Origin: Halorubrum sodomense
GTDB taxonomy: Archaea > Halobacteriota > Halobacteria > Halobacteriales > Haloferacaceae
Direction of reading: 5' to 3'
Length of the DNA stretch: 64,000 nt
Assembly (NCBI RefSeq): GCF_900111935.1
Contig: NZ_FOYN01000002.1
Coordinates: 62,001 to 126,000 of the forward strand
The notes under the pieces are model-generated. The model had not been told where the DNA came from. It ran no database searches and was given only the letters and a program-made list of their open reading frames with translations. Every line of letters begins with the position of its first letter. Within the stretch, counting starts at the first letter, position 1. Made by a program: the position numbers and the translations under genes. Positions 20,208-24,971 of the stretch are shown here, in pieces.

Positions 20208-20733
20208 CGTCTGGTAGTGAGTCGTGGCGCGAGGCGTTCGCCTCGCGCTTCGAGCGGATTCGGTCGTCGAAAACGGTACGAGTGGGGCCGTCGCGTCGAG
20301 AGAGGGGAGGCGCGCTCGCTTCGGCGGCGAGTCGGCCGCCCCCGCGTCGAGGTCACGCGGCGACGGTGCCGAGGAGAGCGGCGACCGGCCCGCGGACCCG
20401 TCTCCGGACGCTCCAGCGGGGGGCGAACGTCGGAATGGGGTCGCGGACGGTCATGGATTCGACCCGGTGGCGGGGGACCGACCGGGCGTACGTTCACCGA
20501 ACGACGGAACCGAGTTAATAGTTCCTCGTGTGTGTGGACCAATACCGCGGTCGAAGGGCCGCCGTTTCCGGGTGCTCCACCGTCCGCGGCCCCGTCGGTC
20601 GCTCCCCGCTCCGCTCGCCGTTTGGTGCCTCGAAAAACGTCCTGACGGAGTCCGACGCGAGCGGAGCGAGCGTCGGGCAAGTCAGGACCGAACGCGGCGG
20701 CTCCCGAGCGAAGCGAGGCAGCCGCAAAGTGAG
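20208..20733. other. Gene-free stretch between a small membrane-protein gene and tRNA-Arg
   Basis: All six frames are open in parts but give only Arg/Pro-rich shadow peptides. It contains an AT-rich island around 20511-20525 (GAGTTAATAGTTCC, possibly a minus-strand TATA box) and, at 20638-20650, a 13-nt copy of the 3' end of the nearby tRNA-Arg gene (CGTCCTGACGGAG). Nothing else supported. Confidence 0.5.
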
Positions 20734-20806
20734 CGTCCTGACGGAGATTTGAACTCCGGTCCCTGGCTCCGCAAGCCAAGAGGATAGTCCACTACCCTAC
20801 CAGGAC
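20734..20806 (-). tRNA. tRNA-Arg (anticodon GCG)
   Basis: 73 nt. A 7-bp acceptor stem pairs GTCCTGG with TCAGGAC; the anticodon stem TTGGC/GCCAG closes the loop TTGCGGA (anticodon GCG, codon CGC); the T arm is CGGAG-TTCAAAT-CTCCG. The discriminator base is G and CCA is not encoded. A TATA-like CTTATGTTCC lies upstream on the minus strand at about 20832-20841. Confidence 0.95.
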
Positions 20807-21053: not shown

Positions 21054-22547
21054 ATGGGAGCCATAGAGGAGGTGTACGAGGACCTCGACACCGATGTCGA
21101 GTTCGAGGAGTTCGAGGCCGCCGTCGAGGACAAGGTCGAGCAGATGGGCGGGCTCGCGGACGAGGAGACCGCAGCGATGCTCATCGCGCACGAGCTGCGC
21201 GACGAGGAGGCAGACACCATCGCCGACATCGAACCGGGGATGAACGAGGTGAAGTTCCTCGGCAAGGTGACCGCGATCGGCGAGGTCCGAACGTTCGAGC
21301 GCGACGACGAGGAGGCCGACGAGGGCCGGGTGTGTAACGTCGACGTCGCCGACGCCTCCGGCTCGGTCCGGGTCGCACTCTGGGACGACATGGCCGCGGC
21401 CGCGGAGGGCGAACTCGAGGTCGGACAGGTGCTCCGGGTCATGGGTCGACCGAAGGAGGGGTACAGCGGCCTCGAAGTGAGCGCGGACAAGGTCGAGCCG
21501 GACGAGGACGCCGAAGTCGACGTGCAGGTGCTCGACACCTACCGCGTCGAGGACCTGACGCTCGGCGCGTCCGACGTGGACCTCGTCGGACAGGTGCTCG
21601 ACACGGACTCGATCCGGACGTTCGACCGCGACGACGGCAGCGAGGGGCGCGTGGCGAACCTCACCGTCGGCGACGAGACGGGCCGCGTGCGCGTCACGCT
21701 CTGGGACGACAAGGCCGACCTCGCCGACGAGTTCGAGCCCGGCGAGGTGGTCGAGGTCGGTGACGGCTACGTCCGCGAGCGCGACGGCGACTTAGAGCTC
21801 CACGTCGGAGACCGCGGCACGGTCGAGCGCGTCGACGAGGACGTCGAGTACGTTCCGGAGACGACCGACATCGCCGACCTGGAGATCGGCGAGACCGTCG
21901 ACATCGGCGGCGGCGTCATCGAGACGGACCCGGTGCGCACCTTCGACCGAGACGACGGCAGCGAGGGACAGGTCAGAAACGTCCGGATCAGAGACGAGAC
22001 GGGCGAGATACGCGTCGCGCTGTGGGGCGACAAGGCCGACCGCGAGATCGACCTGGCCGACCGCGTCGTCTTCACCGACGTCGAGATCCAGGACGGCTGG
22101 CAGGACGACCTTGAGGCGTCTGCGAACTGGCGTTCGACCGTCTCCGTCCTCGACGGCGAGAGCGACGCGGCGGCCGGCGCAGCGAGCGGGGCGTCGGGGT
22201 CCCGTACGGAGGGGAGCGGTGACGCCGCCGACCGCGACGCGAGCGAGACCGGCCTCGGAGCCTTCGCGGAGGACGGGCAGAAGGCGGCCGCCGAGGCCGT
22301 CGCCGGCGAGACGACCGGAGACGACGGGGGCGGTGCGACCGGCGGTGCCGCGGCCGCGACGACGGAGCCGTCGACCGAGGACGTCGAGTTCACCGGCACG
22401 GTCGTCCAGACGGGCGATCCGGTCGTGCTCGACGACGGCCAGCAGACGCGGACCGTCGAGACCGACGCGAGCCTCCGGCTCGGCGAGGAGGTAACCGTTC
22501 GCGGCCCGGAGCGCGACGGCACCATCGACGCCGACGACGTCTTCTGA
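21054..22547 (+). CDS. rpa2: Replication protein A-like ssDNA-binding protein, three OB folds
   Basis: 497 residues from the ATG at 21054. After an acidic N-terminal helix come three OB folds sharing the signature R-T-F-(E/D)RDD...G-(R/Q)V-x-N and ending VRVALWDD, VRVTLWDD and IRVALWGD (about 65-150, 170-255 and 285-365). A Gly/Ala/acidic linker and a small C-terminal beta segment follow. It coats single-stranded DNA in replication and repair. Size, OB count and the neighbouring histone and deacetylase match the haloarchaeal Rpa2 locus as I remember it. The histone gene follows 91 nt downstream. Confidence 0.88.
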   Translation: MGAIEEVYEDLDTDVEFEEFEAAVEDKVEQMGGLADEETAAMLIAHELRDEEADTIADIEPGMNEVKFLGKVTAIGEVRTFERDDEEADEGRVCNVDVADASGSVRVALWDDMAAAAEGELEVGQVLRVMGRPKEGYSGLEVSADKVEPDEDAEVDVQVLDTYRVEDLTLGASDVDLVGQVLDTDSIRTFDRDDGSEGRVANLTVGDETGRVRVTLWDDKADLADEFEPGEVVEVGDGYVRERDGDLELHVGDRGTVERVDEDVEYVPETTDIADLEIGETVDIGGGVIETDPVRTFDRDDGSEGQVRNVRIRDETGEIRVALWGDKADREIDLADRVVFTDVEIQDGWQDDLEASANWRSTVSVLDGESDAAAGAASGASGSRTEGSGDAADRDASETGLGAFAEDGQKAAAEAVAGETTGDDGGGATGGAAAATTEPSTEDVEFTGTVVQTGDPVVLDDGQQTRTVETDASLRLGEEVTVRGPERDGTIDADDVF

Positions 22548-22606
22548 CGCGGGTCTCTCCCGTCCCGATCCGCCCACGGACCCGGCCGCGATGCGGCTAA
22601 CGGAAA

Positions 22607-22616
22607 GCGTTATACG
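22607..22616 (+). promoter_or_regulatory. TATA box for the histone gene
   Basis: GCGTTATACG ends 22 nt before the ATG at 22639, so the histone-deacetylase pair probably has its own leaderless promoter in addition to any read-through from rpa2. Confidence 0.55.
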
Positions 22617-22638
22617 ATACACGGACGCGACTGTGTGT

Positions 22639-23070
22639 ATGAGTGTCGAGTTGCCGTTCGCGCCGGTCGACGGGATCATCCGGCGGAACGCGGGGGAACT
22701 CCGCGTCAGCGCGGACGCCGCCGAGGAGCTCGCGCGACGGATCCAATCGCACGGCGCGGAGCTAGCCATCGACGCGGCCGAGCAGGCGACCGCGGACGGC
22801 CGGAAGACGCTGATGGCCGCGGACTTCGGCGTCGAGCAGGTCGTCAGCCGGGAGGACCTCACGCTACCGGTCGCGCCGATCGACCGGATCGCCCGACTCC
22901 GGATCGACGACCGGTATCGCGTCGGCGTCGACGCGCGCGTCGCGCTGGCCGACATCTTGGAAGACTACGCCGACAACGTCGCGAGCGCGGCCGCGACGCT
23001 GGCCCGACACGCGGACCGGCGAACGGTACAGGCCGAGGACATCGAGACGTACTTCGCCCTCTTCGAGTAG
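22639..23070 (+). CDS. hstA: Archaeal doublet histone
   Basis: 143 residues containing two histone folds in one chain: first FAPVDGIIRRNAGELRVS...ADFGVEQ (about 4-65), second VAPIDRIARL...VQAEDIETYF (about 77-141). Each has the helix-loop-helix pattern with P-x-x-x-I-x-R at the start, so the protein should fold as a pseudodimer, as in other haloarchaea. It is acidic compared with methanogen histones. It binds DNA and may act more as a regulator than a packager in halophiles. Its stop TAG is followed immediately by the ATG of the deacetylase gene (zero gap), so translation of the two is coupled. Confidence 0.93.
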   Translation: MSVELPFAPVDGIIRRNAGELRVSADAAEELARRIQSHGAELAIDAAEQATADGRKTLMAADFGVEQVVSREDLTLPVAPIDRIARLRIDDRYRVGVDARVALADILEDYADNVASAAATLARHADRRTVQAEDIETYFALFE

Positions 23071-24075
23071 ATGCGGTTCGGCTACAGCGAGCGGTGCCTC
23101 GACCACGACACCGGCGAACGACACCCGGAGAACCCGGACCGACTCCGCGCGATCCGCCGCGGCCTCGCGAAGCGGCACGGCGTCGAGTACGCCGAGGCGG
23201 ACCCCGCCGAGAAGGCGGCGGTCACGGCGGTCCACGACCCCGACTACGTCGACGAACTCGAATCGTTCGTGGCGGACGGCGGCGGCAGTTGGGACCCCGA
23301 CACCGTCGCGAGCGAGGGGACCTGGGACGCGGCGCTCACCTCGGCCGGCCTCGCCCAGTGGGCGGCCCGCGAGGCGCTCGACGGGTCGACCGGCCGGCAG
23401 ACGCCGTTCGCTATCGGTCGTCCGCCGGGCCACCACGCCGTCACCGACGACGCGATGGGGTTCTGCTTTTTCAACAACGCCGCGGTCGCGGCCCAGACCG
23501 CCCTCGACGAGGGGCTCGCTGACCGCGTCGCGATCTTCGACTGGGACGTTCACCACGGCAACGGTACGCAGGACATCTTCTACGACCGCGGCGACGTCTT
23601 CTACGCCTCGATCCACGAGGACGGGCTCTACCCGGACACGGGCGCCCTCGACGAGACCGGCGAGGGAGACGGCGAGGAGGCGACCGCGAACCTCCCGCTG
23701 GCGGCCGGCGCCGGCGACGCCGACTACCTGTACGCCGTCGACGAGGGGATCGCACCCGCGGTCGACCGGTTCGACCCCGACCTGCTGATCGTCTCGGCGG
23801 GCTTCGACGCGCACCGCCACGACCCCATCTCGCGGATGCGCGTCTCCTCGGAGGGGTACGCGCTGCTGACCGATCGGATCCGGACGCTCGCGGACGATGT
23901 CGGCGCCGCCGACGCGTACGTCCTCGAGGGTGGCTACGGCCTCGACACGCTCGCCGAAGGGGTCTCGATGGTCCACGAGACGTACGACGGCCGGACCCCC
24001 GTCGACACCGACGAGGAGCCGGACGAGAAGACGGAAACGCTCGTCGACGACCTCCGGTCGGAGCTGGGCCTGTAG
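23071..24075 (+). CDS. Histone deacetylase-family zinc hydrolase
   Basis: 334 residues. Class II HDAC/acetoin-utilisation family: charge-relay histidines in RPPGHHAV (His121, His122), zinc ligands in FDWDVHHGNGT (Asp159, His161) and the third Asp in SAGFDAHRHDP, plus FYASIHE and LEGGYG. All catalytic residues are present, so it should be active on acetyl-lysine or a small acetylated amine. It begins directly after the histone stop codon, which points to acetylated chromatin or other proteins as substrate, but deacetylases of this family also act on polyamines. The haloarchaeal homologue is known as HdaI; I leave the symbol blank. Confidence 0.92.
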   Translation: MRFGYSERCLDHDTGERHPENPDRLRAIRRGLAKRHGVEYAEADPAEKAAVTAVHDPDYVDELESFVADGGGSWDPDTVASEGTWDAALTSAGLAQWAAREALDGSTGRQTPFAIGRPPGHHAVTDDAMGFCFFNNAAVAAQTALDEGLADRVAIFDWDVHHGNGTQDIFYDRGDVFYASIHEDGLYPDTGALDETGEGDGEEATANLPLAAGAGDADYLYAVDEGIAPAVDRFDPDLLIVSAGFDAHRHDPISRMRVSSEGYALLTDRIRTLADDVGAADAYVLEGGYGLDTLAEGVSMVHETYDGRTPVDTDEEPDEKTETLVDDLRSELGL

Positions 24076-24131
24076 TCCGAGCTCCTGACCGGTCGCTGGC
24101 GCTCCTCGCTCGGTGTTGCGGCAGCGAGAGA

Positions 24132-24155
24132 CGCCCGGAGCGGGATTTGAACCCG
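24132..24155 (-). repeat. Truncated tRNA-Asp 3' end (remnant copy)
   Basis: 24 nt are identical to the 3' end of the two intact tRNA-Asp genes, and the similarity extends ~32 nt into the downstream flank (24100-24131 against 24240-24270). The 5' two-thirds of the tRNA are missing. It is a pseudogene fragment or old attachment-site copy. Confidence 0.75.
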
Positions 24156-24200
24156 GAGGACTTCGCTCACTGCGTTCGCTCGTCCTCAGATTCAAATCCC
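24142..24200. repeat. Large imperfect inverted repeat at the tRNA remnant
   Basis: GGGATTTGAA (24142-24151) pairs perfectly with TTCAAATCCC (24191-24200), and GAGGAC (24156-24161) with GTCCTC (24182-24187), leaving a 20-nt loop. The loop holds the 17-mer CGCTCACTGCGTTCGCT, which recurs at 55186-55202. Confidence 0.75.
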
Positions 24201-24270
24201 TCCGTCTGGGTCCGTCGATGTCGGACTCGCTCGTCGCTGCGCTCCTCGTTCGGTGTTGCGACAGCAGAAA

Positions 24271-24343
24271 CGCCCGGAGCGGGATTTGAACCCGCGTCAC
24301 GACCGTGACAGGGTCGTATGATGGGCCACTACACCATCCGGGC
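24271..24343 (-). tRNA. tRNA-Asp (anticodon GTC), copy 1
   Basis: 73 nt. Acceptor stem GCCCGGA/TCCGGGC with discriminator G, anticodon stem CGACC/GGTCG closing loop CTGTCAC (anticodon GTC), T arm GCGGG-TTCAAAT-CCCGC. Identical to the second copy at 24374-24446. Confidence 0.96.
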
Positions 24344-24373
24344 AAACAGGCGACAGCGCCCCGAAACCGGGGA

Positions 24374-24446
24374 CGCCCGGAGCGGGATTTGAACCCGCGT
24401 CACGACCGTGACAGGGTCGTATGATGGGCCACTACACCATCCGGGC
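24374..24446 (-). tRNA. tRNA-Asp (anticodon GTC), copy 2
   Basis: Same 73-nt sequence and cloverleaf as copy 1, 30 nt away on the same strand; upstream of copy 1 in transcription order. The pair is a tandem duplication, probably cotranscribed. Confidence 0.96.
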
Positions 24447-24743
24447 TTGTCGCACCAGTTCGTACCCCTGTCTGGCAGATAAGGCTTGTCATCGCCGTCC
24501 GGAGTGAGGGTCGGTAACAGGGGATTTCGGCTCTCGGATGCCGGCTCCCGGGGACCGGCGGGGTCGACGCGCGAGCGCGTCGTTCGTCCGCTCCGGTATC
24601 CTTTTGTGTTGACCCTGCGTGCGTGTGAGTGTCGAACGCCCCCGTCGGGAGCCGTGCGCGGCGAAACTTGGTAACTCTTATCCCGCTGGCGTATATATGT
24701 TCCTGTAGTATCTCGTGATAGCTTCTTTCAATAACCACCACCC
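24447..24743 (+). promoter_or_regulatory. Upstream region of the RNA polymerase operon
   Basis: 297 bp without a gene. It holds a strong TATA box GTATATATG at 24691-24699, a second TATA-like CTCTTATCCC at about 24676-24685, and an A/T-rich leader before the rpoH ATG at 24744. The rest shows nothing I recognise. Confidence 0.6.
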
Positions 24744-24971
24744 ATGGTAGACGTAAGCCAACACGAACTCGTCCCGGACCACGTGCTCCTCGACGCCGAC
24801 GAGATCGAGGAAGTCCTGGCGGAGTACGACGTGAAGAAAACGAACTTACCGAAGATCAAACGCACGGATCCCGCGCTCTCCGACGAGGCCGAGGTCGGTG
24901 ACGTGGTGAAAATCGTTCGAAACTCCCGCACGACCGACGAGGCGGTCGTCTATCGACTGGTCGTCTCATGA
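24744..24971 (+). CDS. rpoH: DNA-directed RNA polymerase subunit H (Rpo5)
   Basis: 75 residues, the usual size of the archaeal H subunit, equivalent to the C-terminal domain of eukaryotic Rpb5. [10 protein letters not shown] opens the protein and [11 protein letters not shown] plus [12 protein letters not shown] are the conserved core. It assembles next to the downstream DNA jaw. First gene of the RNA polymerase operon; its TGA overlaps the next ATG (ATGA). Confidence 0.96.

Follow-up and report, generated by a model that had tools for sequence, protein, structure and literature searches.

The locus analysed here is the haloarchaeal hstA-hdaI operon, as in Haloferax volcanii, in which a doublet histone gene is followed directly by the gene of a zinc-dependent deacetylase. 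It lies in the window, the whole stretch of 64,000 nucleotides of Halorubrum sodomense DNA that was analysed; the source genome is haloarchaeal, 3.03 Mb in size and 99.76% complete. With moderate confidence we read the enzyme as a general lysine deacetylase that is co-expressed with the histone, and lysine 56 (K56) of the histone as one likely target. The observations at the base of this reading are the gene layout, the orthology, the promoter motif, the intact active site and the invariance of K56. The histone-deacetylase arrangement was partly known before. Already in print for H. volcanii, as far as the accessible parts of the reports go, are the overlap and cotranscription of hstA (HVO_0520) with the class II-like deacetylase gene hdaI (HVO_0522) and the proposal of 2010, made from this overlap and cotranscription, that the histone is an HdaI substrate (PMC2946573), as well as the essentiality of hdaI (PMC2946573, PMC6267482, PMC3017900). 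New are the invariance of K56, the counts of histones in which it is the sole lysine, the clean loss of the deacetylase in one genus and the 68 of 145 genomes in which no Sir2 was found.

The window carries rpa2, the doublet histone gene and the deacetylase gene in one run on the forward strand (21054-24075):

21054..22547, + strand: rpa2, the upstream neighbour, coding for a 497-aa protein of repeated OB folds that binds single-stranded DNA
22639..23070, + strand: doublet histone, a 143-aa chain that holds two histone folds
23071..24075, + strand: 334-aa lysine deacetylase, zinc-dependent and a member of PF00850, probable orthologue of HdaI (HVO_0522)

Profile searches identified Rpa2 as an NF005551 equivalog (E 1.9e-237), the histone as PF00808 in two stretches (E 1.3e-23) and also as NF043032, and the deacetylase as PF00850 (E 6.9e-86; 288.7 bits against a cut-off of 27.9; profile positions 1-296 of 298); among the NCBIfam models none fitted the deacetylase. 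The histone stop codon TAG occupies 23068-23070 and the deacetylase ATG starts at 23071, leaving a gap of 0 nt, and 91 nt separate the end of rpa2 (22547) from the start codon of the histone (22639). The initial annotation had described both the direct junction and the 91-nt spacing on the same strand, and our coordinates and strand agree. While the genes overlap in H. volcanii, they abut without overlap in the window. A GGAGGT stretch precedes the start of rpa2 itself; farther upstream, a tRNA-Arg gene (anticodon gcg, 20733-20806) lies on the opposite strand.

We retrieved the loci of 145 haloarchaeal genomes from 58 genera and measured the gaps. All 145 encode a PF00850 enzyme as well as a doublet histone, and in 141 the histone is followed by the orthologous deacetylase on the same strand with a gap of at most 24 nt. 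The gap lies between -4 and +7 nt in 138 genomes, with 0 and -4 as the commonest values (32 each), and is 605 nt in one (G130). Three genomes lack a deacetylase beside the histone, two from one genus (G001 and G007) and one from another (G020). The pair is likewise present, at gaps of -4 to +6 nt, in all 17 named loci, which include Haloquadratum, Natrialba, Halogranum and Halopenitus. Its surroundings are far less stable: within the retrieved flanks the downstream rpo genes of the window (rpoH, rpoB'') were found in none of these 17 loci, mutS also occurs in none, and the other two upstream genes of the window occur in two and four. The pair is thus conserved beyond a chance layout. That it is kept while both flanks rearrange suggests more than passive inheritance, and passive synteny alone is weakened as an explanation of the link.

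The pair seems to be expressed from a promoter of its own:

22601..22614, + strand: putative promoter for leaderless transcription of the histone gene, with BRE and TATA box (CGGAAAG ... TTATA) at -38 to -25 relative to the start codon

Column conservation across 144 histone upstream sequences gives A at 0.89-0.94 for -35 to -33 and T/T/A at 0.90-0.92 for -29 to -27, with a BRE-like consensus CGAAA from -38 to -33 and a TATA-like one, TTAA, from -29 to -26. BRE/TATA spacing of this kind is expected for a leaderless transcript that starts at the ATG. This conserved histone promoter argues for histone and deacetylase as the working unit, with rpa2 as a neighbour. Only 6 of 141 loci (G092 left out) have a ribosome-binding-like sequence ahead of the deacetylase, and its rarity makes translation of the deacetylase by termination-reinitiation likely.

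In a tree of 88 deacetylase sequences the linked clade comprises 58 rows (SH-aLRT 99), namely 56 linked enzymes and two late paralogues. Its place in this clade and its position right after the histone mark the window's enzyme as a probable HdaI orthologue. A divergent, unlinked type of deacetylase falls outside the linked clade; it is the sole PF00850 enzyme of the three exceptional genomes and occurs as a second copy in G089 and G092 (L002, L003, L005, L011, L150). Two genomes of one genus, G090 and G033, have a second deacetylase (L142, L143) that groups inside the linked clade next to another family, a placement suggestive of horizontal transfer.

Downstream of the deacetylase, a convergent cca gene (tRNA nucleotidyltransferase; identified by eye, not by profile) follows in 116 of 142 linked loci. 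Convergent cca stands right after the histone in G001 and G007, from which the deacetylase has thus dropped out cleanly. Among 20 loci retrieved outside the class, cca adjoins the deacetylase in 12, in five of which no histone stands near the enzyme among the matches listed. By listed coordinates, a same-strand histone stands 0.8-4.4 kb upstream of the deacetylase in at least 7 of the 129 genomes from outside the class. Since cca and a histone occur near the deacetylase outside the class, the neighbourhood probably predates the haloarchaea, and the tight histone-deacetylase operon is probably a haloarchaeal feature. One outside-class cluster (L163-L168; names by eye) contains a leucyl-tRNA synthetase-like gene, a PRTase, a PIN-like gene and a single-fold histone, and continues with thiI-like, thi4-like, deacetylase, cca and ligT-like genes. 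We found no match for a deacetylase with a cca neighbour in the open-licence literature. In all 15 genomes of the window's genus, cca was not found downstream of the deacetylase within the retrieved stretch; in the window (24075-24744) tRNA-Asp genes and the rpo operon occupy its usual place. The stretch from the deacetylase to the tandem pair of tRNA-Asp genes contains a 25-nt exact copy (24131-24155) of the 3' end of a tRNA-Asp gene (24270-24344), perhaps a scar left by an integrated element.

The deacetylase has retained its complete active site, for which the following codons can be given:

23431..23436, + strand: catalytic histidine pair H121-H122, invariant in 142/142 linked enzymes
23545..23553, + strand: zinc ligands D159 and H161, within codons 159-161, invariant in 142/142 linked enzymes
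23806..23808, + strand: zinc ligand D246, invariant in 142/142 linked enzymes
23935..23937, + strand: catalytic Y289, invariant in 142/142 linked enzymes

Together with D157 and D77 these residues are all present, each in every one of the 142 linked enzymes, so that the claim of the initial annotation that no catalytic residue is missing holds for the whole linked set. The roles of the catalytic residues and of D77, presumably substrate-binding, were assigned after HDAC8. The structure model of the enzyme (pLDDT 95.2) is matched best by HDAC6, plant HDA15 and bacterial HDAH/Kdac1 (Z 47-49, rmsd 1.7-2.0), with about 325-330 residues aligned at 30-38% identity. Fold and full catalytic set are common to these enzymes, HDAC6 being of class IIb, and to the window's enzyme. 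In contrast to them, the window's enzyme is short and of a single domain, has no extra domains and carries clade-specific residues at its rim. These rim residues, R17, W74, E183, I253 and R255, are identical in all 142 linked enzymes and variable among the other deacetylases of the set. Such a clade-specific invariant rim may reflect a substrate or partner that is fixed.

Profile searches of the source genome returned one PF00850 gene, and a Sir2 gene was not found there, unlike in H. volcanii, which has one. Across the class, Sir2 is present in 77 of the 145 genomes and was not found in the other 68, the window's included, so that the linked enzyme would often be the main deacetylase. By genus, all sampled species lack Sir2 in 22 genera, all have it in 32, and four genera are mixed. 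Sir2 is also missing from the three genomes without a linked deacetylase. In about 65 genomes, where further PF00850 copies are possible, the linked enzyme thus appears to be the main deacetylase of both families. Given that no Sir2 was found in the source genome, the linked enzyme probably serves the whole acetylome there.

The histone model (pLDDT 95.7) shows two histone folds, with helices at 7-18, 25-52, 60-63 and 78-86, 97-124, 132-142, and its best structural match is 1f1e, the doublet histone of Methanopyrus kandleri. Like haloarchaeal histones in general, it has no tail. In having two folds, an acidic chain, the RxTxxxxD motif and one copy per genome it resembles the haloarchaeal doublet histones HpyA/HstA (cluster 3). 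The window's histone contains a single lysine:

22804..22806, + strand: codon of K56, sole lysine of the window's histone, in the motif R55-K56-T57-xxxx-D62 of fold 1

The structure model places K56 in the L2 loop, at a position that we take to be equivalent to K79 of eukaryotic H4. The initial annotation had expected the modification target within the fold, and K56 fits this expectation. Its position is lysine in 145 of 145 haloarchaeal histones; in 39, the window's included, it is the sole lysine, while the other 106 have at least two. Lysine is rare in haloarchaeal histones, at 1.65% of the residues, and of 38 invariant columns K56 alone is a lysine. The corresponding motif of fold 2 is R127-R128-T129..D134; here position 128, the equivalent of K56, is arginine in 144 histones and lysine in one, and the R, T and D of the motif are invariant in 145/145.

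The invariance of K56 cannot be taken as proof of acetylation. As a control we inspected 37 histone loci outside the class (35 genomes; 30 best-scoring matches, so that the sample leans towards the consensus), and the K56 position is lysine in 35 and arginine in two. A published account assigns DNA binding to the arginine or lysine at this position of the RKTxxxxD motif (PMC11390915). Because lysine is usual at this place outside the class and the position is held to bind DNA, the invariance needs no acetylation.

In the mechanism that we favour, the histone would be transcribed from its own leaderless promoter with the deacetylase as second cistron, and translation of the latter would be coupled to the stop codon of the histone. 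The product would be a class II-like zinc-dependent lysine deacetylase that presumably acts on many proteins and that, in the source genome, may be the sole deacetylase of both families. The co-made histone would be one of its targets; removal of the acetyl group from K56 would restore the positive charge where the L2 loop contacts DNA, and might thereby restore DNA binding. Against this reading stand the scarcity of haloarchaeal HstA/HpyA, for which excerpts of the published work give 32 bound sites and under 1% of the genome (PMC10128011), and the retention of K56 in the three genomes without a linked enzyme. A search of the open-licence literature, as far as its texts were accessible, returned no report of haloarchaeal histone acetylation, and the accessible main text of the H. 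volcanii acetylome study mentions "histone" five times and never names the organism's own histone as a target (PMC10294847). The closest likeness in outline is the Alba-Pat-Sir2 system of Sulfolobus, in which, according to the available portions of two papers, a chromatin protein is deacetylated at a lysine that contacts DNA (PMC7226565, PMC6267482). There, however, the chromatin protein is unrelated and the enzyme NAD-dependent, and acetylation has been reported in that system and not in this one.

It is possible, and we consider it tentatively, that the vital targets of the enzyme lie elsewhere, in metabolic enzymes, Cdc6 or other acetylated proteins, and that the histone is an old neighbour with shared expression. 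Acetylated glycerol kinase and Cdc6 have been reported in Haloferax in the accessible parts of two publications (PMC12853182, PMC7226565). The genomes without Sir2 would fit such a role, and cca would be the stable old neighbour within and outside the class. Genetics also fits: hdaI is essential in H. volcanii, while strains without hstA are viable, with impaired growth (PMC10128011). Thus, the histone is not simply the vital target, and it can be at most one target unless acetylated histone is toxic. The suggestion of the initial annotation that the histone may be the substrate is reasonable in itself, but as sole target the histone is countered by this contrast, by the lysine that is usual at the K56 position outside the class, and by the source genome, in which no Sir2 was found. 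Against a mere neighbourhood stands the tight gap in 138 of 145 genomes, which survives the rearrangement of both flanks.

If acetylated histone were toxic, the enzyme would be essential though the histone is dispensable, and reversal of K56 acetylation could be its main function. Such dedication would suit a near-universal operon, an invariant K56 that is often the only lysine and faces arginine in fold 2, and a rim that is conserved as if the substrate were fixed. Yet it would leave the Sir2-less genomes without a general deacetylase; the three genomes that retain K56 without a linked enzyme and the low abundance of the histone in the published excerpts (PMC10128011) argue in the same direction, and we regard a dedicated histone eraser as quite unlikely.

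Another chromatin protein as the target, namely the abundant face-to-face histone (HVO_0196 in Haloferax) with its conserved DNA-binding lysines, we consider very unlikely. Its gene ranks within the top 2% by expression in three of four data sets, and the protein has a conserved lysine, K11 (PMC11390915).

To our knowledge, no genomic link connects the face-to-face histone with the deacetylase. Rpa2 had been named as a possible substrate by the initial annotation, which placed its gene in one run with the pair. Its adjacency stands: rpa2 lies within 400 nt upstream of the histone in 132 of 145 genomes (38-364 nt). It is farther upstream in four and absent from the retrieved flank in nine, some of these flanks reaching only ~1 kb beyond the histone, and 12 of these 13 genomes retain the histone-deacetylase pair. 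A single unit would leave no promoter between rpa2 and the histone, and a conserved motif is found there; together with the 13 genomes this led us to reject one operon of all three genes, although transcriptional read-through from rpa2 into the histone may occur. The Rpa2 lysines K27, K71 and K327 are retained in 111 of 112 complete sequences, but with a separate promoter for the pair and the pair intact where rpa2 is displaced or not found nearby, Rpa2 as the target is highly improbable. A small-molecule substrate such as an acetylpolyamine is barely credible: PF00850 does include acetylpolyamine amidohydrolases and HDAC10, which are among the PDB matches, and two bacterial xenobiotic amide hydrolases are among the best structural matches, but protein deacetylases form the majority of these, and the gatekeeper, a Glu in the polyamine deacetylase HDAC10, is Ile253 in all 142 linked enzymes.

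Archaeal histones may be regulated by acetylation, and a nearly universal operon whose histone often has a single, invariant lysine reduces this question to a one-residue experiment. The contrast of an essential deacetylase and a dispensable histone offers a clean genetic test; in the accessible open-licence literature we did not find the two combined in this way. The pair thus makes control by histone acetylation easy to test outside eukaryotes, and the linked enzyme is marked as the main deacetylase of many haloarchaea. We think it unlikely, though worth stating, that the pair is a minimal chromatin eraser operon in which the one lysine that matters, K56, is switched by a co-translated deacetylase. 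If this were true, core-fold acetylation at a DNA contact would be older than tail acetylation.
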